From the NCBI RefSeq assembly GCF_018390635.1, contig NZ_JAHBGE010000038.1:62001-126000 (forward strand): a DNA stretch of 64,000 bases, given 5' to 3'. Both the position numbers and the translations under genes were made by a program. Positions 22,345 to 30,136 of this stretch are shown one piece after another (the first letter of the stretch is position 1; every line of letters begins with the position of its first letter). Under the pieces are notes generated by a model. It did not search any database. It saw only the letters and a program-made list of their open reading frames with translations, and was not told the DNA's origin. The stretch comes from Ancylobacter lacus. GTDB taxonomy: Bacteria; Pseudomonadota; Alphaproteobacteria; Rhizobiales; Xanthobacteraceae.

Positions 22345-22647
22345 CTATTCCTCCTCGCCGAAGCGGCCGGCGACCAGCGCCTCCAGCGCCTCCAGCGCGG
22401 CCACCGCCTGCGCCCCGCTGGCCTCGACGGTGATGACGGTGCCCGGCGCGGCGGCCAGCATCATCAGCCCCATGATCGAGGTGCCGCCCACGGTCTCGCC
22501 GCAGCGGGTTACCCGCACATCGGCGTCGAAGCGCTCCACCGTCTGCACGAACTTGGCGGAGGCCCGCGCGTGCAGGCCCCGCTTGTTGAGGATGGGAAGC
22601 TCCCGCTTCAGCGCGGCGGGCGTGTCCGTCATCGGGGGCTGCGTCAT
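22345..22647 (-). CDS. ptsH: phosphocarrier HPr (NPr-type)
   Basis: A 100-residue phosphocarrier of the regulatory (nitrogen-type) PTS. The phosphorylated histidine is H26 in NKRGLHARAS, and the regulatory serine that HprK phosphorylates is S57 in GGTSIMGLMML; both are intact. An extra ten residues precede the usual start. The ATG overlaps the stop of the EIIA gene (ATGA), so the two are translated together. No sugar-specific EIIB/EIIC genes occur here, so this relay most likely senses carbon/nitrogen state rather than importing sugar. Confidence 0.93.
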   Translation of the reverse strand: MTQPPMTDTPAALKRELPILNKRGLHARASAKFVQTVERFDADVRVTRCGETVGGTSIMGLMMLAAAPGTVITVEASGAQAVAALEALEALVAGRFGEEE

Positions 22648-23045
22648 TTTCCGGCGAGCACACGGCTGGCGATGTTGATGTATTTGCGCCCGGCGTCCTG
22701 GGCCTGCGCCACCGCCTGATCCAGCGGGACTTCGGCGCGGACGGTGGCGAGCTTCACCAGCATCGGCAGGTTGATGCCGGCCACGACCTCGATGTCGGGC
22801 GCGTTCATCACCGAAATGGCGAGATTCGACGGGGTGCCGCCGAACATGTCGGTGAGGATGACGACACCCGCCCCGCTGTTCACGGACTCGACGGCGGCGA
22901 GTATGTCCTTGCGGCGCTGCTCGATGTCGTCGTCGGGGCCGATGGTGATGGCTTCGATCTGGGACTGCGGCCCCATCACGTGCTCAAGAGCCGAGCGGAA
23001 CTCGCTGGCCAGATGTCCATGGGTTACGAGTACGAGTCCGATCAT
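22644..23045 (-). CDS. PTS EIIA component, mannose/fructose (EIIA-Man) family
   Basis: A 133-residue phosphoryl acceptor of the EIIA-Man fold. The active histidine is H9 in LVLVTHGHLA, and the family loop ILTDMFGGTPSNLA is present. In alphaproteobacteria this orphan EIIA belongs to the chvI-chvG-hprK-EIIA-HPr cluster and receives phosphate from HPr; it is thought to regulate rather than transport. It overlaps ptsH by four bases and follows hprK after 116 bases. Confidence 0.92.
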   Translation of the reverse strand: MIGLVLVTHGHLASEFRSALEHVMGPQSQIEAITIGPDDDIEQRRKDILAAVESVNSGAGVVILTDMFGGTPSNLAISVMNAPDIEVVAGINLPMLVKLATVRAEVPLDQAVAQAQDAGRKYINIASRVLAGK

Positions 23046-23161: not shown

Positions 23162-23701
23162 CTAAATCCATGGTGTATCGCCTGCAGCCTCGTCATCGAG
23201 CCCCGGCGCGGTAAGGGCGTACGCAATCACCGCGTGCACCGGGTCCATGCCGGGGCCGAGCGCGAGGCGCGCCAGCGCCACCCCGGCGAACGACGCGGTG
23301 CGGCCGGGCGGCGGCAGGCGCTCGGCATCGGTGGCGGCAAGGTCGACCAGCAGCCGCAGCGGGACCGGCGCCAGCGGCTGCAGCCGCCGCAACCCCAGGC
23401 CGCGAACCTCCAACAGGCCGGCGAGCGCCGGGGCCGGGCGTGCCAGCAGCCGGCCCTCCACAACCTCCACCAGCACCCGGTCGTCGGCCACCAGCCGGGT
23501 CTCGGGGAGGATTCCGGCGCGGCCGGCGAGGATGAGCGCGAAGGCGAGGTGCGATTTGCCGCAGCCCGAGGGGCCGCGGATCAGCACGCCGTGCCCGCCA
23601 ATGGCGACGCAGGCGCCGTGCAGCGTGCCCGCCGGCACCTCGCCGGTCCCCTGCCCCTCGGCCGGCGCGGACGGCGGTTCCTCCGGCGGGTGCGCGGCCA
23701 T
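23162..23701 (-). CDS. hprK: HPr kinase/phosphorylase, short alphaproteobacterial form
   Basis: This enzyme phosphorylates and dephosphorylates HPr on its regulatory serine. At 179 residues it contains only the kinase domain, as usual in alphaproteobacteria, and lacks the N-terminal domain of Firmicute enzymes. Walker A is GPSGCGKS (residues 43-50) and the following LVADDRVLVEV carries the acidic catalytic site. A GTG at 23710 overlapping the chvG stop (GTGA) is an alternative start that would add three residues. The operon places HPr phosphorylation under the ChvG/ChvI system. Confidence 0.9.
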   Translation of the reverse strand: MAAHPPEEPPSAPAEGQGTGEVPAGTLHGACVAIGGHGVLIRGPSGCGKSHLAFALILAGRAGILPETRLVADDRVLVEVVEGRLLARPAPALAGLLEVRGLGLRRLQPLAPVPLRLLVDLAATDAERLPPPGRTASFAGVALARLALGPGMDPVHAVIAYALTAPGLDDEAAGDTPWI

Positions 23702-23706
23702 GGCCG

Positions 23707-25602
23707 TCACACCGCCGGCAGGCGGATGATGAAGCGGGCGCCGACCACGCCCTCCGCCGCGGGCACCACCGGGGCCGGCTCGGCCTTGCGGCGGCCGCGC
23801 CGCGCCGGCTTCGGCGCCGTCACCGCCTCGGCGAAGCGGTTCTCCGCCCAGATCCGCCCGCCATGGGCCTCGACGATCTGGCGCGAGATGGAGAGGCCGA
23901 GGCCGGAATTCTGGCCGAAGCCCTGATCCTCCGGCCGGTCGGTGTAGAACCGCTCGAAGATGCGGGTCAGCGCGTGCGGGGGAATGCCGGGCCCGTCGTC
24001 GTCGACGACGATCTCGACCTGGTCGCGCAGCCGCCGGCACGTCACCCGCACCTCGCCGCCCTGCGGCGAGAACGAGCGGGCATTGTCGATGAGGTTGTTG
24101 ATGACCTGGCCGAGCCGGGAATCATGGCCGGGCACGACGAAGGCGCCATTCGCCGCACCGCCCGGCTCATAGGTGAGGGCGATGGTCACCCCGTCGCCGC
24201 GGCGCACGTCGTTCTGCACCCCGATCACCGTGCCCAGCAGCCGGGTGAGGTCCACCGGGGCGGATTCCTGGCGCTGCAGCTCGGCGTCGAGCCGGCTGGC
24301 GTCGGAAATGTCGGTGATCAGCCGGTCGAGCCGCTTCACATCGTGCTGGATCACCTCCATCAGCCGGGCGCGGGACGCGTCGTTGCGGGCGAGCGGCAGC
24401 GTCTCCACGGCCGAGCGCAGCGAGGTGAGCGGGTTCTTCAGCTCGTGCGAGACGTCGGCGGCGAAGCTTTCGATCGCCTCGATGCGGGAATAAAGCGCGT
24501 CGGTCATGTCGCGCAGCGCGCCGGAGAGATGGCCGATCTCGTCGGAGCGCTGGGTGAAGTCGGGAATCTCCACCCGCTGCCGGGTGCGGCGGCGCACCCG
24601 CTCGGCGGCGTCCGCCAGCTTGCGCACCGGCCCGGCGATGGTGCCCGCCAGCAGGAAGGACAGCAGCATCATCACCGCGATGGCGACCAGGAACACCCGC
24701 ACGATGACGAAGCGCTCCGCCGCCACCGCCTCGTCGATCTCGCCGCCCTGCGTGGAGAGCAGCAGCGCGCCGAGAATGGCGCGGAAGCGCTGCACCGGCA
24801 CCGCCACCGAGACGATGACCTGGCCGCGGTCGTTCACCTGCACCGCGCTCGCCTTCTGCCCCAGCAGGGCCTGCTCCACCTGCGGGTAGCCCTTGCCGTT
24901 GTTGGGGCCGAGCTCCCTGTAGAGCGGCAGGTCGCCGCGCTGGAACCACATCTGCACGCTGTTCCAGCCGCGCTCCATCCAGTTCGGCTTGCGGGTGGTG
25001 GGGGCCGGCAGCTCGAAGCGCAGGATCTCGCCGCGGGAATAGAGCGAGCTGGAATCCAGCAGCAGCGCGCCGTCGCGGTCATAGATGCGGGCGCGGGTGC
25101 CGGTGGGCTCGACGAGCCGCTTCAGCACCGGGGCGACGCGCTCGGGATTGATGGGGAATTCGAGCGGGGCGAAGCCTTCCTCGCCGGGGCCGTAGCTCTC
25201 GCCGGCCTTCAGCTCCAGCAGCCGCTCGGGGTCGATGGTGATGGCGTTGGTCTCGACCTGGGCCGAGGCGGCGATGGCGCCGGCGATGATCTCGCCCTGC
25301 ACCAGCAGGCTCTGCACCCGGGCGTCGATGAGGCCGGCGCGGAACTCGGAGAGGTAGAGAATGCCCGACACCAGCAGGAACATGCCGGTGAGGTTCAGGA
25401 AGACGATGCGGCGGGTGAGGCTGGAGAAGCTCTTGAACGCCACGAAGCGCCGCACCCGGCGCAGCAGCGCCAGCAGGTCGGCGAGCGGGCCCAGCCGCAC
25501 CGTGCGGCGGCGCGCCAGCCGGGCGGCCGGGTCGCGCGCGGGCGGGCGGGGCTCGGCGCCCTCGCCCTCCCCGGCGGCGCGCGTGGAGTCGGGATCGAGC
25601 AA
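23707..25602 (-). CDS. chvG: sensor histidine kinase ChvG
   Basis: A 631-residue membrane kinase that senses acid or envelope stress in rhizobia and relatives. A cytoplasmic Arg-rich N-terminus and first membrane helix (IVFLNLTGMFLLVSGILYL) are followed by a roughly 220-residue periplasmic domain, a second helix, HAMP, the H-box FAADVSHELKNPLTSLRS, and the ATPase with VINNLIDNA, DDDGPGIPP and GLGLSIS. A Pro/Ala-rich insert near the C-terminus (AEPAPVVPAAEG) is unusual. The first codon is TTG at 25602 with GGAG 11 bases upstream. Seven bases separate it from chvI. Confidence 0.94.
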   Translation of the reverse strand: MLDPDSTRAAGEGEGAEPRPPARDPAARLARRRTVRLGPLADLLALLRRVRRFVAFKSFSSLTRRIVFLNLTGMFLLVSGILYLSEFRAGLIDARVQSLLVQGEIIAGAIAASAQVETNAITIDPERLLELKAGESYGPGEEGFAPLEFPINPERVAPVLKRLVEPTGTRARIYDRDGALLLDSSSLYSRGEILRFELPAPTTRKPNWMERGWNSVQMWFQRGDLPLYRELGPNNGKGYPQVEQALLGQKASAVQVNDRGQVIVSVAVPVQRFRAILGALLLSTQGGEIDEAVAAERFVIVRVFLVAIAVMMLLSFLLAGTIAGPVRKLADAAERVRRRTRQRVEIPDFTQRSDEIGHLSGALRDMTDALYSRIEAIESFAADVSHELKNPLTSLRSAVETLPLARNDASRARLMEVIQHDVKRLDRLITDISDASRLDAELQRQESAPVDLTRLLGTVIGVQNDVRRGDGVTIALTYEPGGAANGAFVVPGHDSRLGQVINNLIDNARSFSPQGGEVRVTCRRLRDQVEIVVDDDGPGIPPHALTRIFERFYTDRPEDQGFGQNSGLGLSISRQIVEAHGGRIWAENRFAEAVTAPKPARRGRRKAEPAPVVPAAEGVVGARFIIRLPAV

Positions 25603-25609
25603 AGGCCCG

Positions 25610-26308
25610 CTACTCCTTGAAGCGGTAGCCGACGCCGTACAGCGTCTCGATCATCTCGAAATTGTCGTCCACCACCTTGAACTTCTTGCGTAGCCGCTTG
25701 ATGTGGCTGTCGATGGTGCGGTCATCGACATAGACCTGATCGTCATAGGCCGCGTCCATCAGCGCGTTGCGGCTCTTCACCACGCCGGGGCGGGTGGCGA
25801 GCGCCTGCAGGATGAGGAACTCGGTGACGGTGAGAATGACGTTCTCGCCCTTCCAGGTGCAGGTGTGGCGCTCCGGGTCCATGCGGAGCTGGCCGCGCTC
25901 CAGAACCTTGGCGCTGTCGGTCTCGCGCGGCAGGGTGCCGTCCTTGGGGGCGAAGCGGCGCAGCACCGCCTTGACCCGCTCCACCAGCAGGCGCTGGGAG
26001 AAGGGCTTCTTGATGAAGTCGTCGGCGCCCATCTTGAGGCCGAACAGCTCGTCGATCTCGTCATCCTTGGAGGTGAGGAAGATCACCGGCATGTCGCTCT
26101 TCTGGCGCAGGCGGCGCAGCAGCTCCATGCCGTCCATGCGCGGCATCTTGATGTCGAAGATCGCGAGGTCCGGCGGGTTGGAGCGGAAGCCGTCGAGCGC
26201 CGTCGCGCCGTCCGTGTAGGTCTGGATGCGATAGCCTTCCGATTCGAGCGCGATCGACACCGAGGTGAGGATGTTGCGGTCGTCGTCGACAAGGGCGATG
26301 GTCGGCAT
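25610..26308 (-). CDS. chvI: response regulator ChvI
   Basis: A 232-residue OmpR-type regulator. The receiver has the acidic pocket VDDDRN, the phosphorylated D52 in [13 protein letters not shown] and the conserved Lys in FIKKPFS; the C-terminal winged helix ([28 protein letters not shown]) binds DNA. It is first in the chvI-chvG-hprK-EIIA-ptsH series. Its promoter lies in the 215-base gap shared with the divergent HugZ-like gene. In rhizobia ChvI controls exopolysaccharide, motility and acid responses; exoD in this window could be a target, but that is inference. Confidence 0.96.
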
Positions 26309-26523: not shown

Positions 26524-27279
26524 ATGAACGCCGAAACCCAGCACGATCAAGGCTTCGACCCGGCCCGGGCGGCCCGCACGCTGCTGCGGGAATCCACGAC
26601 CGGGGCGCTGGCGACGCTGGATTCCGACGGCACCCCCTATGCCTCGCTGGTGCAGGTGGGGACGCTGCCGGACGGGGCGCCGACGCTGCTGCTCTCCGGC
26701 CTTGCCCGCCACACCCGCAACCTGAAGGCCGATTCGCGCGCCTCGCTGCTGCTCGACGAGCGCGGCCGGCCCGGCGCCGCCCCGGGCGAGGAGCTGCAGC
26801 GCGCCTGCCTCACCCTCACCGGCCATGTGGTGCCGACCGACGACGCGGCGGCGCGGCGGCGTTTCCTGCGCCGGCACCCCGACGCCGCGCTGTTCGCCGG
26901 CTTCCGCGACTTCGGCTTCTACCGGCTGGAACCGGCGCAGGGCCATCTCGTCGCCGGCTTCGGCCGCATCGTCGACCTCTCCGCCGCCGAGCTGCTCACC
27001 CCGCTTGCCGGCGCCGAGGGCGTGCTGGCGGCCGAGGAGGGCGCGGTTGTCCACATGAACGCCGACCATGCCGACGCGGTGGCGCGCTACGCCACCGTCC
27101 TGCTCGGCGCCGCGCCAGGCGCGTGGGAGCTGATCGACATCGACCCGGAGGGCTGCGGGCTGATGGCCGGCGGGGTGGTGCGCCGGCTCGACTTTCCCCG
27201 CCGCATCGGCGCCGGGGAGGAGCTGCACCGGATGATGGTGGAGCTGGCGCAGGCAACCCGCCCCGCCCCGCCGGCATGA
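26524..27279 (+). CDS. HugZ-like FMN/heme-utilisation family protein
   Basis: A 251-residue protein with an N-terminal pyridoxamine-phosphate-oxidase-like split barrel (RTLLRESTTGALATLDSDGTPYASLVQVG, LSGLARHTRNLKAD) and a C-terminal DUF2470 domain (VVHMNADHADAVARYA). HugZ-type members bind and cleave heme to release iron; others are general flavin/heme binders. The combination is typical. GAAGGAGG-like purines precede the ATG. It occupies the place next to chvI where a normal pckA is often found in relatives. No iron-regulated operator was recognised. Confidence 0.83.
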   Translation: MNAETQHDQGFDPARAARTLLRESTTGALATLDSDGTPYASLVQVGTLPDGAPTLLLSGLARHTRNLKADSRASLLLDERGRPGAAPGEELQRACLTLTGHVVPTDDAAARRRFLRRHPDAALFAGFRDFGFYRLEPAQGHLVAGFGRIVDLSAAELLTPLAGAEGVLAAEEGAVVHMNADHADAVARYATVLLGAAPGAWELIDIDPEGCGLMAGGVVRRLDFPRRIGAGEELHRMMVELAQATRPAPPA

Positions 27280-27295: not shown

Positions 27296-28027
27296 TCAGA
27301 TGATCGGGCGCGGCGCCAGCTCGTCGTCGTAATATTGCGCGAGGCGCTCCAGCACCCGCGGGTTGATGATCTGCATCCGGCCGGTGGTGAAGGTGAACAG
27401 GCCGAGCCGGCGCAGCCGGGCGATGGTCTTGTTGGTGTGCACCAGCGACAGCCCCAGCGCGTCGGCGATGTGGCTCTGGTTCAGCGGAAAGGCGAAGCTG
27501 TCGTCATTGGCGACGAGGCCCAGCGTGCGGCAGCGCTTGTGCAGCGTCAGGATCAGCGCCGCCACCCGCTCGGCGGCGTTGCGCAGCCCGACCGAGACGA
27601 GGTTCTCGTCGACGAGGCTCTCCTCATGGGCGCCGAGCCACGACACCTCGAAGGCGAGCTGCGGCACCCGCTCGAACAGCGACCACACGCGCTGGCGCGG
27701 AAAGACGCAGAACTCCGCCTCCGTCAGGGTCTCCACCCCATAGAGCGAGGCGCCGAACATCGAGGCCTGCAGGCCGATGAAATCGCCCGGCAGCAGGAAA
27801 TGCAGGATCTGGCGGCGCCCGTCCGGCAGGGTCTTGTAGCGGAACGCCCAGCCGGAGAAGAGGGTGTAGAGGTCGGCGTCCTCCTGCCCCTGGTGGATCA
27901 GCGAGGTGCCGGCGGACACGGTGAGGTGGTCGCGCTTCAGCGTGTCGAGGAAGGCGATCTCCGCCTCGGTCTTGGGCTTGAAGGCGGGCTGCCGGCGCAG
28001 ACCGCATTCCTGACACCGCACCCGCAT
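27296..28027 (-). CDS. Crp/Fnr family transcription regulator
   Basis: A 243-residue regulator: an N-terminal CxxC (CQECGLRRQP), a cyclic-nucleotide-binding-like barrel (LIHQGQEDADLYTLFSGWAF, LLPGDFIGLQA), a dimer helix, and a C-terminal helix-turn-helix (QSHIADALGLSLVHTNKTIARL). Only two N-terminal cysteines are seen, not the four needed for an FNR iron-sulfur cluster, so it probably belongs to another subgroup. ATG 28027 lies just after GGAG/GAGG purines. It is divergent from the pckA-like gene across a 500-base gap that holds a GGTGA-N4-TCACC dyad. Confidence 0.9.
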   Translation of the reverse strand: MRVRCQECGLRRQPAFKPKTEAEIAFLDTLKRDHLTVSAGTSLIHQGQEDADLYTLFSGWAFRYKTLPDGRRQILHFLLPGDFIGLQASMFGASLYGVETLTEAEFCVFPRQRVWSLFERVPQLAFEVSWLGAHEESLVDENLVSVGLRNAAERVAALILTLHKRCRTLGLVANDDSFAFPLNQSHIADALGLSLVHTNKTIARLRRLGLFTFTTGRMQIINPRVLERLAQYYDDELAPRPII

Positions 28028-28531
28028 CCTCGTCTCCGCCTCGGCCGGCCTTGCCGCGCCCCGCCTCTCTCGCCCGCCGGCCGGCCTGCGCCGCCGCGGA
28101 TCGGACACGCCCTCTCTACCATCAATGAGGTGACCGTTCACCGCCGGCCGGCCTCGCCCCGCAATGCCGGGGCCGCCCCGGCCGGGCGGCGGCGCGGAGC
28201 GGCCCGGCCGGCAGGCCACACGACGGGGCCTTGCCCGTAAAGGCCGTGGCGGACGGTAACGGCCGGCGGCGCGCGAGCGCCGGTCCGGCGGCGGGGGACG
28301 GCGGGGGGACGACAGCGGAGAGCGGCCCCGGCCTGCGTCAGCCTGACGCGCCGGGCCGGCGGCCGCCGTGGCCGGCGCCGGGCCGGGCCGGCGGTCACAA
28401 CTTGGTTCCCTGCCACATTATCAGCACAAGTGGTGGGGAAGACATCGGGTGCGACCTTTCCGTTCCCGCCCCGCGCGGGAGCCCATGGAAGAGACGGCGG
28501 CCCGCTTCGGCCCTCGCCTTAGGAGATGAGC
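28028..28531. other. divergent regulatory gap, Crp-type regulator / pckA-like gene
   Basis: This 504-base gap has no credible gene. It is unusually GC-rich apart from an AT-richer patch near 28395-28450 (ACAACTTGG...CACATTATCAG), the best place for the pckA-like promoter, and the dyad at 28129-28142. No classic -35/-10 pair is clear. Confidence 0.5.
28129..28142. promoter_or_regulatory. candidate Crp/Fnr-type dyad
   Basis: GGTGA-CCGT-TCACC is an inverted repeat with a 4-base centre, the spacing used by FNR-type sites, and lies 102 bases upstream of the Crp/Fnr gene. Autoregulation is possible. A 5-bp arm can arise by chance, so support is weak. Confidence 0.3.
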
Positions 28532-30136
28532 ATGCAGGAAACCGGCACACGCAATCCCTCGACGGGCGCTGCCGCCTACGGCCTCGACGGCTCGGGAATC
28601 GTGTTCTGGAATCTCGCCGAACCCGCTCTGTACGAGCGCTCCATCGCCCGGGGCGAGGCGCGCCTCGCCGCCTCCGGGGCGCTGTGCGTGGATACCGCGC
28701 CGCTGGCCAGCGCCGCCCCGGCCGACCGCCGCGTTGTGCGCGAGGACGCCAGCGCGCCGGAGGGCTGGGAAGGCCACCGGCCGCTGGAGCGCGAGGCGTT
28801 CGACCGGCTGAAGGCCGACATGCTGGCCCACGCCGCCGGCCGCTCCATCTTCGCCCAGGACCTGCACGCCGGCGCGGATGCGGACTGGCGGCTCAACCTG
28901 CGGGCCTATTGCGAGCAGGCCTGGCACGGGCTTTTCCTGCGCACCCTGCTGCGGCGCCCGGCGCGGGAGACGCTGGCGACGTTCGTGCCCGACCTGACCC
29001 TGCTCTGCCTGCCCGGCTTCAAGGCCGACCCGGAGCGCCACGGCTTCACCGGCCCCGCCGCCGTCGCGATCGACCTCGCGCGCGGCGACATCCTGGTCTG
29101 CGGCACCAATGAGGGCGCCGAGCTGCGCAACGCGGTGCAGCTCTGCCTCGACCACGCGCTGCCCGGCCGTGGCGTGCTGCCGCTGCACGGCGCCGTCACC
29201 GTCAGCGAGGAGGGCGAGGCCGCGCTGCTGCTCGGCCATGACGGCAGCGGCAAGACCACGCTCGCCGCCGACGAGGGCCGCACCCTGATCGGCGACGACA
29301 GCCATGGCTGGGCGGCCTCGGGGCTGGTCAATCTCGAAGGCGGCTGCCACGTCCGCACCGAGGGGCTCAGCGCCGAGCGCGCGCCGGAGCTCCACGCCGC
29401 GGTGAACCGGTTCGGCACCCTGCTGGAGAATGTGGTGCTGCACCCCGACACCCGGGAGCCGAACTATGCCAGCACCGCGCTGGGCGAGACGCCGCGCGCC
29501 AGCTTCCCGCTGCGGGTGGTGCCCCATGCCAGCCTCAGCGGCCGCGCCCCGGCGCCCCGCGCCATCCTGCTGCTCTGCCGCGACACGCGCGGCGTGCTGC
29601 CGCCGATCGCCCGGCTGAAGCCGGCCACGGCGCTGTACCACTTCCTCTCCGGCTATGGCGCCCCGATGGCGGCGGCCGATGGCGCACCGGCCCATGCCGG
29701 CTTCTCGCCCTGCTTCGCCGGGGCGACGCTGGCGCACCACCCCTCCACCCACGCCGCCCGGCTGCGCGACCTGGTGCAGCGCCACGGCGCGACCTGCTGG
29801 CTGGTGAACACCGGCTGGATCGGCGGGCCGATGGGAACCGGCCGCCGGGTGCCGCTGGCTTTGACGCGCCGGCTGGTGGCGGCGGCGATCGACGGTGCGC
29901 TGGCCGAGGTCGACATGCGCACCGATCCCTATTTCGGCATCTCGGTGCCGACCTCGCTGCCGGGCGTCGAGCCCCAGCTTCTGAACCCCGCCCGGAGCTG
30001 GGCCAGCGCCAGCGCCTATGAGGCGGCGGCGCGGGCGCTGGTGGCGCTGTTCGTCGAGAATTTCGAGCGCTTCGAAACCGCCGTGGACGACGAGGTGCGC
30101 GGCGCCTGCCCCCGGCTGGCGGTAGCGGCGGAATAG
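28532..30136 (+). CDS. PEP carboxykinase (ATP)-like protein with altered active site
   Basis: A 534-residue homologue of alphaproteobacterial ATP-type PEP carboxykinase along its whole length, with a conserved C-terminal part (WLVNTGWIGGPMGTGRRVPL). Nucleotide-binding pieces survive in changed form: GHDGSGKTT (residues 235-243) and GDDSHGW (254-260; normally GDDEHGW). Residues for substrate and metal are lost: the HTGRSPKDK loop is LASAAPADR (about 58-66), EMKK is ELRN (197-200), and CYAK is CHVR (272-275). The metal-binding His (H219) remains. Catalysis of the normal reaction is doubtful, so this may be a pseudoenzyme or have a new role. ATG 28532 has AGGAG 6 bases upstream; ATG 28526 directly abuts it. 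Confidence 0.85.
   Translation: MQETGTRNPSTGAAAYGLDGSGIVFWNLAEPALYERSIARGEARLAASGALCVDTAPLASAAPADRRVVREDASAPEGWEGHRPLEREAFDRLKADMLAHAAGRSIFAQDLHAGADADWRLNLRAYCEQAWHGLFLRTLLRRPARETLATFVPDLTLLCLPGFKADPERHGFTGPAAVAIDLARGDILVCGTNEGAELRNAVQLCLDHALPGRGVLPLHGAVTVSEEGEAALLLGHDGSGKTTLAADEGRTLIGDDSHGWAASGLVNLEGGCHVRTEGLSAERAPELHAAVNRFGTLLENVVLHPDTREPNYASTALGETPRASFPLRVVPHASLSGRAPAPRAILLLCRDTRGVLPPIARLKPATALYHFLSGYGAPMAAADGAPAHAGFSPCFAGATLAHHPSTHAARLRDLVQRHGATCWLVNTGWIGGPMGTGRRVPLALTRRLVAAAIDGALAEVDMRTDPYFGISVPTSLPGVEPQLLNPARSWASASAYEAAARALVALFVENFERFETAVDDEVRGACPRLAVAAE

Follow-up and report, generated by a model that had tools for sequence, protein, structure and literature searches.

Gluconeogenesis counts PEP carboxykinase (PEPCK) among its textbook enzymes, and the P-loop fold of PEPCK is shared by HPr kinase/phosphorylase (HprK). 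Mammalian PCK1 belongs to the GTP family and keeps carboxykinase activity. In E. coli numbering, we take R65, Y207, and K212 to be the substrate/CO2 residues, K213, H232, and D269 to be the Mn2+ ligands, K288 of the CYAK motif to serve phosphoryl transfer, and K254 and T255 of the P-loop, together with D268, R333, and R449, to form the nucleotide site. The gene and its surroundings have been described in Brucella, and a second activity has been described for PCK1, in three reports. In Brucella melitensis, a cluster of the chvG-chvI/HPr/HprK/EIIA type is co-transcribed, and pckA adjoins it in the opposite direction (PMC2937029). In B. abortus, phosphorylated BvrR, the counterpart of ChvI, binds the region upstream of pckA (PMC9491525). 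For mammalian PCK1, protein kinase activity toward INSIG1/2 has been reported (PMC8033018).

We analyzed a stretch of 64,000 nucleotides from Ancylobacter lacus (hereafter the window), which carries a single open frame for a full-length PckA homologue at positions 28532-30136 of the plus strand. The protein comprises 536 amino acids if counted from the first in-frame ATG (28526) and 534 from the ATG at 28532. The latter is the better start, as AGGAG lies directly 5' of it and its Met corresponds to the invariant M3 in the alignment. The protein belongs to the PEPCK_ATP family of Pfam (PF01293; 445.4 bits against a cut-off of 26.5, profile positions 3-463 of 465), while it falls under both NCBIfam equivalog cut-offs for PckA (NF006822, 600.5 versus 806; TIGR00224, 398.9 versus 590.05). 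The best 80 matches in a bacterial genome collection were 44-48% identical to the window protein and were mostly named alphaproteobacteria, for instance Roseibium, Bradyrhizobium, and Chelatococcus. No Pfam HprK match was found for this frame at E <= 0.001, and TIGR04352 gave 11 bits (E 0.16, cut-off 200). The AF2 model of the protein (pLDDT 88.5, pTM 0.89) was matched by Foldseek to Thermus PckA (1xkv) with TM of 0.90/0.94, which identifies a PEPCK fold. The stretches of low confidence in the model include residues 60-63 and 75-79, at or just past the former R65 loop.

The window protein was aligned to E. coli PckA and to the PckA proteins of 94 further loci whose frame was usable, the numbering being anchored on the titles of mutant structures (Arg65Gln, Y207F, K212I, Lys213Ser, Lys254Ser, and Asp269Asn). 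The 94 locus rows came from 110 loci examined and were kept by the presence of the P-loop and GDD motif on the plus strand only, so that the invariance of these two motifs in the locus rows follows from how the rows were picked; the selection motif does not involve the six lost residues described below. The set of canonical sequences comprised 106 rows, or 101 distinct ones after 5 duplicates, and excluded the E. coli row, 23 stripped copies of the genus and three copies of a second genus (see below for both), and the loci L201 and L205. R65, Y207, K212, K213, E270, and K288 are present in all of the 101 distinct canonical rows, and all six are replaced in the window. The former TGRS loop now reads LASAAP (28703-28732, plus strand, as for all sites below), with Ala63 (28712-28714) as the equivalent of R65. 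The former GTxYAGEMKK has become GTNEGAELRN (29102-29131), with Glu196, Arg201, and Asn202 at the positions of Y207, K212, and K213. GDDSHGW (29291-29311) keeps D268 and D269 and has Ser259 in place of E270, and Arg277 (29354-29356) replaces K288, turning CYAK into CHVR. On the side of retention stand H232 (His221, 29186-29188), the P-loop GHDGSGKTT (29234-29260; K254 and T255 being Lys243 and Thr244, with Asp239 at S250), R333 (Arg324, 29495-29497), and R449 (Arg441, 29846-29848). The sites of K212/K213, GDDEHGW, and CYAK align without shifts, and the residues are thus lost rather than displaced. Measured by the residues of an active ATP-PEPCK (EC 4.1.1.49), the window protein has the nucleotide site and lacks R65, Y207, K212, K213, and K288.

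A sequence-only reading of this DNA had claimed that the arginine loop, the two lysines of EMKK, the Glu of GDDEHGW, and the Lys of CYAK were replaced, with the P-loop, the metal-binding His, and the fold kept, and had proposed an alignment to PckA enzymes as a check. The alignment upheld each of these points (R65, K212, K213, E270, and K288 lost without shifts; P-loop and H232 retained), as did the TM of 0.90 to Thermus PckA for the fold; the replacement of Y207 by Glu196 is a further loss that the reading had overlooked. Its claim that metal-binding residues were lost holds in part: K213 is gone, but H232 and D269 are still present in the window copy, and all of the three ligands are gone only in more deeply stripped relatives. 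The sister species (G017) likewise lacks R65, Y207, and K288.

Neither a second canonical pckA nor any other PF01293 match was found in the genome of the window, which is 99.64% complete, as the sequence-only reading had asked to be checked. The frame is preceded by a HugZ-like gene (CREG/PNPOx and DUF2470; 26524-27279, plus strand), which is the syntenic upstream neighbor of pckA in all 30 genomes of the genus, and an ORF for a Crp/FNR-type regulator lies between the two (27296-28219, minus strand). Further upstream, all on the minus strand, are the genes for a ChvI-type response regulator (25610-26308), a ChvG-type sensor kinase (23707-25602), an HprK-like kinase with an intact Walker A motif (23162-24040; the true start is probably inside the ORF), EIIA-Man (22644-23045), and HPr (22345-22647). 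HprK is thereby a P-loop kinase gene of its own in the same locus, separate from the frame under study. The order acetyltransferase-ahcY-HPr-EIIA-chvG-chvI-hugZ-like-pckA is conserved in the window as well as in the remaining 29 genomes of the genus. The PF01293 gene occurs once per genome in 30 of 30 (in seven of them, the single open frame is listed in two pieces), and the PEPCK_GTP profile had no match in any of the 30. Thus, the window ORF is the pckA orthologue itself, since it is the only PF01293 gene of the genome and stands at the syntenic place of pckA. The earlier remark that it lies near chvI/chvG and hprK, where pckA often sits, was right about the location and can be sharpened accordingly. 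The neighbors retain their own motifs: both HPr motifs were found in 30 of the 30 genomes, and the Walker A pattern of HprK in 36 of 37 loci. The sole locus without a simple match to this pattern (L140) is that of G025, a genome with a canonical PckA. Across the genus, identity to the window ranges from 87 to 99% for ChvI and goes down to 39% for PckA. Altogether, the window gene shares fold (TM 0.90), length, the place beside chvI-chvG-hprK, the P-loop, D268, R333, and R449 with ATP-dependent PckA (PF01293; alphaproteobacterial enzymes, Thermus 1xkv, and E. coli 1ayl), and differs from it in the six replaced residues, to which the deeper relatives add H232 and D269.

We regard Starkeya, including Starkeya novella, as now placed in Ancylobacter. 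Among the 30 genomes of the genus, seven (G003, G006, G009, G020, G021, G022, and G025) possess a canonical PckA, and 23, including the window, possess a copy stripped to varying depth. An artefact of assembly or sequencing is ruled out by the stripped orthologues in 22 genomes other than that of the window. The lowest-scoring copy of the genus (G015, 494 amino acids; AF2 pLDDT 79.8) still has a PckA fold in its model, aligned over 464 residues with Z of 37.7 and rmsd of 2.7. In the 23 stripped copies, Y207 and K288 are kept in none, K212 in one, R65, K213, and E270 in three each, H232 and D269 in five each, and S250 in seven; K254, on the other hand, is kept in 21, and D268, R333, and R449 in all 23. 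T255 is Thr in 10 of them and Ser in the other 13. The P-loop Lys is missing in G001 and G010, which are the exceptions to the retention of the ATP site in the genus. Substrate-site loss across the stripped copies is firm, and we infer that PEPCK activity would be absent from them. That the active site has been re-wired and the protein still works as a carboxykinase would be in keeping with the retention of H232, D269, and the P-loop in the window copy and with the mildest copies, in which 10 of the 13 tabulated positions (G005 and G016) or, in a second genus, 11 of 13 (G246) are kept. We nevertheless consider this reading very improbable, as the window lacks six residues found in all of the 101 distinct canonical rows, several of the lost positions (R65, Y207, K212, and K213) coincide with those of E. 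coli mutant structures by title, and K213, H232, and D269 are all missing in 18 of the 23 copies.

The retention of individual sites was compared with that of 137 other columns whose residue is at least 95% invariant across canonical PckA and identical in E. coli; on average, such a comparison column is preserved in 58% of the stripped copies. The substrate/metal/transfer set (7 columns) is kept less than the comparison columns (Mann-Whitney p 0.00025; 0.00026 without duplicates), and the nucleotide set (8 columns) is kept more (p 0.003; 0.0030 without duplicates), with the reservation that the sets were chosen by the residue roles given above and that neither columns nor copies are independent. 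When R333 was reassigned to the substrate set, the p values were 0.0030 (substrate) and 0.0077 (nucleotide), and when the nucleotide set was cut to K254, T255, D268, and R449, that is, without the P-loop glycines and R333, p was 0.06. The evidence that the nucleotide site is retained in excess is therefore fair in strength, as it depends on counting the P-loop glycines and R333. To go by the residues that it keeps, the stripped product would most likely bind ATP. Retention of these residues for folding may be an alternative reason for the pattern.

The stripped copies also share replacements. M231L and L459V occur in all 23, S214A in 22, S234A in 21, K288R and S258A in 20 each, D269G in 17, and H271L in 16. 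Many of these switches swap polar or catalytic side chains for small or apolar ones, as if an emptied pocket were being packed. A live rival is that the gene encodes a neofunctionalised enzyme, in which the kept ATP site would phosphorylate or hydrolyse another small molecule or protein and the Arg at 288 would hold the gamma-phosphate. The ATP-site residues being among the best kept, the recurrence of K288R and the other parallel switches, and the protein kinase activity reported for PCK1 (PMC8033018) all speak for such an enzyme. Nevertheless, we think it unlikely on the whole, as the replacements at Y207, K213, H232, and E270 vary between lineages, many of the common switches lead to Ala, Gly, Leu, or Val and look like a pocket that is closed rather than new, and the P-loop Lys is gone from G001 and G010.

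The sequence-only reading had also held that so many losses in one intact frame look selected rather than decayed, and the comparison within the genus agrees. The frame is open in all 23 stripped orthologues. The dN/dS values (NG86) ranged from 0.08 to 0.52 in the 13 stripped pairs tested, every one below 1, and from 0.07 to 0.23 in four canonical pairs. Bootstrap intervals (100 draws) for nine stripped pairs were all below 0.6, the extremes being 0.03-0.13 for G005/G016 and 0.38-0.58 for G001/G010, and that for the window versus G017 was 0.26-0.41. Thus, purifying selection acts on the stripped copies, in most cases less strongly than on the canonical enzyme; constraint is relaxed, since the stripped values lie mostly above those of the four canonical pairs. 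As a homologue of an enzyme that is devoid of catalytic residues and has its frame under purifying selection, the gene is a candidate pseudoenzyme.

Slow decay, in which the gene would be on the way to a pseudogene and the frames would be open merely from too little time, is suggested by the relaxed constraint, by the graded depth of loss, and by the plain pseudogene that pckA has become in Brucella abortus (PMC9491525). That gene is the same one in the same neighborhood and carboxykinase has been dispensed with there too, but it carries a premature stop, in contrast to the open frames under purifying selection seen here. Neutral simulation from the canonical frame of G003, which is rough because its substitution count takes in silent draws, left 10.8% of the runs free of stops at 0.1 changes per site, as decay would allow, but 0.2% at 0.3, and at 0.6 not one of 500 runs stayed free of them. 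Together with the 23 open frames, dN/dS below 1 in 13 of 13 pairs, a loss that is uneven by site, and third-position GC that stays gene-like (mean GC3 0.873 versus 0.893), these results lead us to consider simple decay improbable. We rank a new ATP-using enzyme above both decay and a carboxykinase that has been re-wired.

The number of times the catalytic residues were lost was assessed on six-gene species trees inferred by FastTree, in which rpoB was available for 28 of the 30 genomes and several nodes are weakly supported. If the canonical state is ancestral and was never regained, the species trees imply six or seven separate losses. In the PckA protein tree, 21 of the 23 stripped copies formed one clade with a support of 76, separate from G000 and G017. 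With the third positions of PckA, the AU test rejected the species tree at p 0.008 and the PckA protein tree at p 0.031, and it did not reject a topology that unites every stripped copy in a single clade (p 0.066). One early loss followed by re-import of canonical alleles is a possible history. Fitch counts at many catalytic residues were 3-4 changes on the species tree and 2-4 on the PckA tree. We claim only that, within the genus, repeated change occurred at many of the catalytic residues, and that the case of the second genus is separate. Two relatives at the level of the family, G030 (L163) and G031 (L164), have pckA split over two frames, either by frameshifts of the drafts or as real pseudogenes, and were omitted from the PckA alignments.

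Outside the genus, PF01293 was found in 306 of 397 genomes sampled from the order and was missing from 91 (269 of the 341 well-completed genomes had it), and it was found in 190 of 389 genomes sampled from the class and missing from 199. Absence of the gene is common in these samples, in contrast to none of the 30 genomes of the genus. Most of the matches in the order and class samples were of canonical strength. Twelve weaker matches of the order sample were re-examined; some of them were fragments at contig ends and some were only mildly lower. In a second genus with 13 genomes, 10 copies were at canonical score and three were full-length frames with lost residues. The copy of G246 is mildly altered (K213H and E270A), and those of G322 and G164 are deeply stripped, with four and three of the 13 tabulated positions kept, respectively; the latter has Glu at D268 and nothing aligned at R333, where the alignment is uncertain. 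All three copies stand at the same locus, beside the hugZ-like gene and chvI. Switches seen in the first genus recur among them (S214A and S234A in three of three, M231L and D269G in two of three), and C233 is Ala in all three, compared with Gly in 16 of the 23 copies of the main genus. For three canonical-scoring copies of the second genus, L217, L214, and L218 (G223, G305, and G195, respectively), no chvI or hugZ-like neighbor was found within the 20 kb examined, and pckA may have moved in these genomes. The same three genomes sat on one very long branch in the g46 tree, where they are probably represented by non-orthologous regulators, and this tree is only a rough guide because of that branch.

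In a third genus, the copies of G335 (L222, truncated where its contig ends) and G363 (L223) carry D268N, E270A, and K288R with most of the other motifs intact, and G241 has a canonical-scoring copy. The altered copies may show the same kind of loss shortly after its onset. One second-genus copy and the mild third-genus ones weaken the rule that the ATP site is held, the exceptions being D268 and R333 in G164 and D268N in the third genus.

A PPDK_N domain (PF01326) was found in frames of 902-1013 amino acids in all 30 genomes of the genus, in those with canonical and with stripped copies alike. PF01326 also covers PEP synthase, and the frame length fits PPDK. Malic enzyme was matched in 28 of the 30 genomes, G024 and G025 being those without a match. 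PEP can thus probably be obtained from pyruvate by the PPDK-like enzyme, for which reason carboxykinase activity would be dispensable. Such a backup leaves the retention of the protein unexplained.

We judge there to be about an even chance that the stripped copies are adenine-nucleotide-binding pseudo-carboxykinases kept for a role other than carboxylation that was already present in canonical PckA. The PPDK-like route to PEP would have made the carboxykinase activity dispensable, the residues for oxaloacetate/PEP, Mn2+, and the transferred phosphate would then have been lost and partly swapped for small apolar ones, and the adenine-nucleotide site (P-loop, D268, R333, and R449) and the fold would have been held. 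The second job would probably be the nucleotide-dependent binding of a partner protein, and, as a guess, the partner might belong to the adjoining ChvG-ChvI/HprK/EIIA/HPr cluster. A second role that predates the loss, as we infer for canonical PckA, would explain both why the gene was kept after catalysis was lost and why the loss recurred in more than one genus. More tentatively, the PckA of these alphaproteobacteria may be two-faced, combining carboxykinase with an ATP-dependent regulatory job tied to the chvG/chvI and HPr/HprK/EIIA neighborhood, in which case the stripped copies in at least two genera would be natural separation-of-function proteins with the regulatory half only. The likeness to pseudoenzymes and moonlighting enzymes, such as PCK1, reported to act as a protein kinase (PMC8033018), is that of a metabolic fold in a non-metabolic role; in the present case, the sequence is the ground for judging catalysis lost, and the non-metabolic role is a proposed one.

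Our searches of the open-licence literature yielded no description of a PckA whose catalysis is retired and which is kept as a protein, and our search found no literature on PEPCK or pckA with Ancylobacter. In a proteome paper on S. novella (PMC3797975), "carboxykinase" and "pckA" are absent from the main text. By sequence, PEPCK catalysis appears retired and the protein retained in 23 of the 30 genomes of one genus and in some of a second. At a single locus, copies grade from canonical to stripped while the frame and the larger part of the ATP site persist, which is evidence for a role other than carboxylation, and the stripped copies are ready-made separation-of-function alleles for seeking it. 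The second role may also give a reason for the conserved neighborhood of pckA, chvI, chvG, hprK, EIIA, and HPr. For 23 of the 30 genomes of the genus, the analysis suggests that annotation as PEPCK would mislead, as would metabolic models that rely on it.
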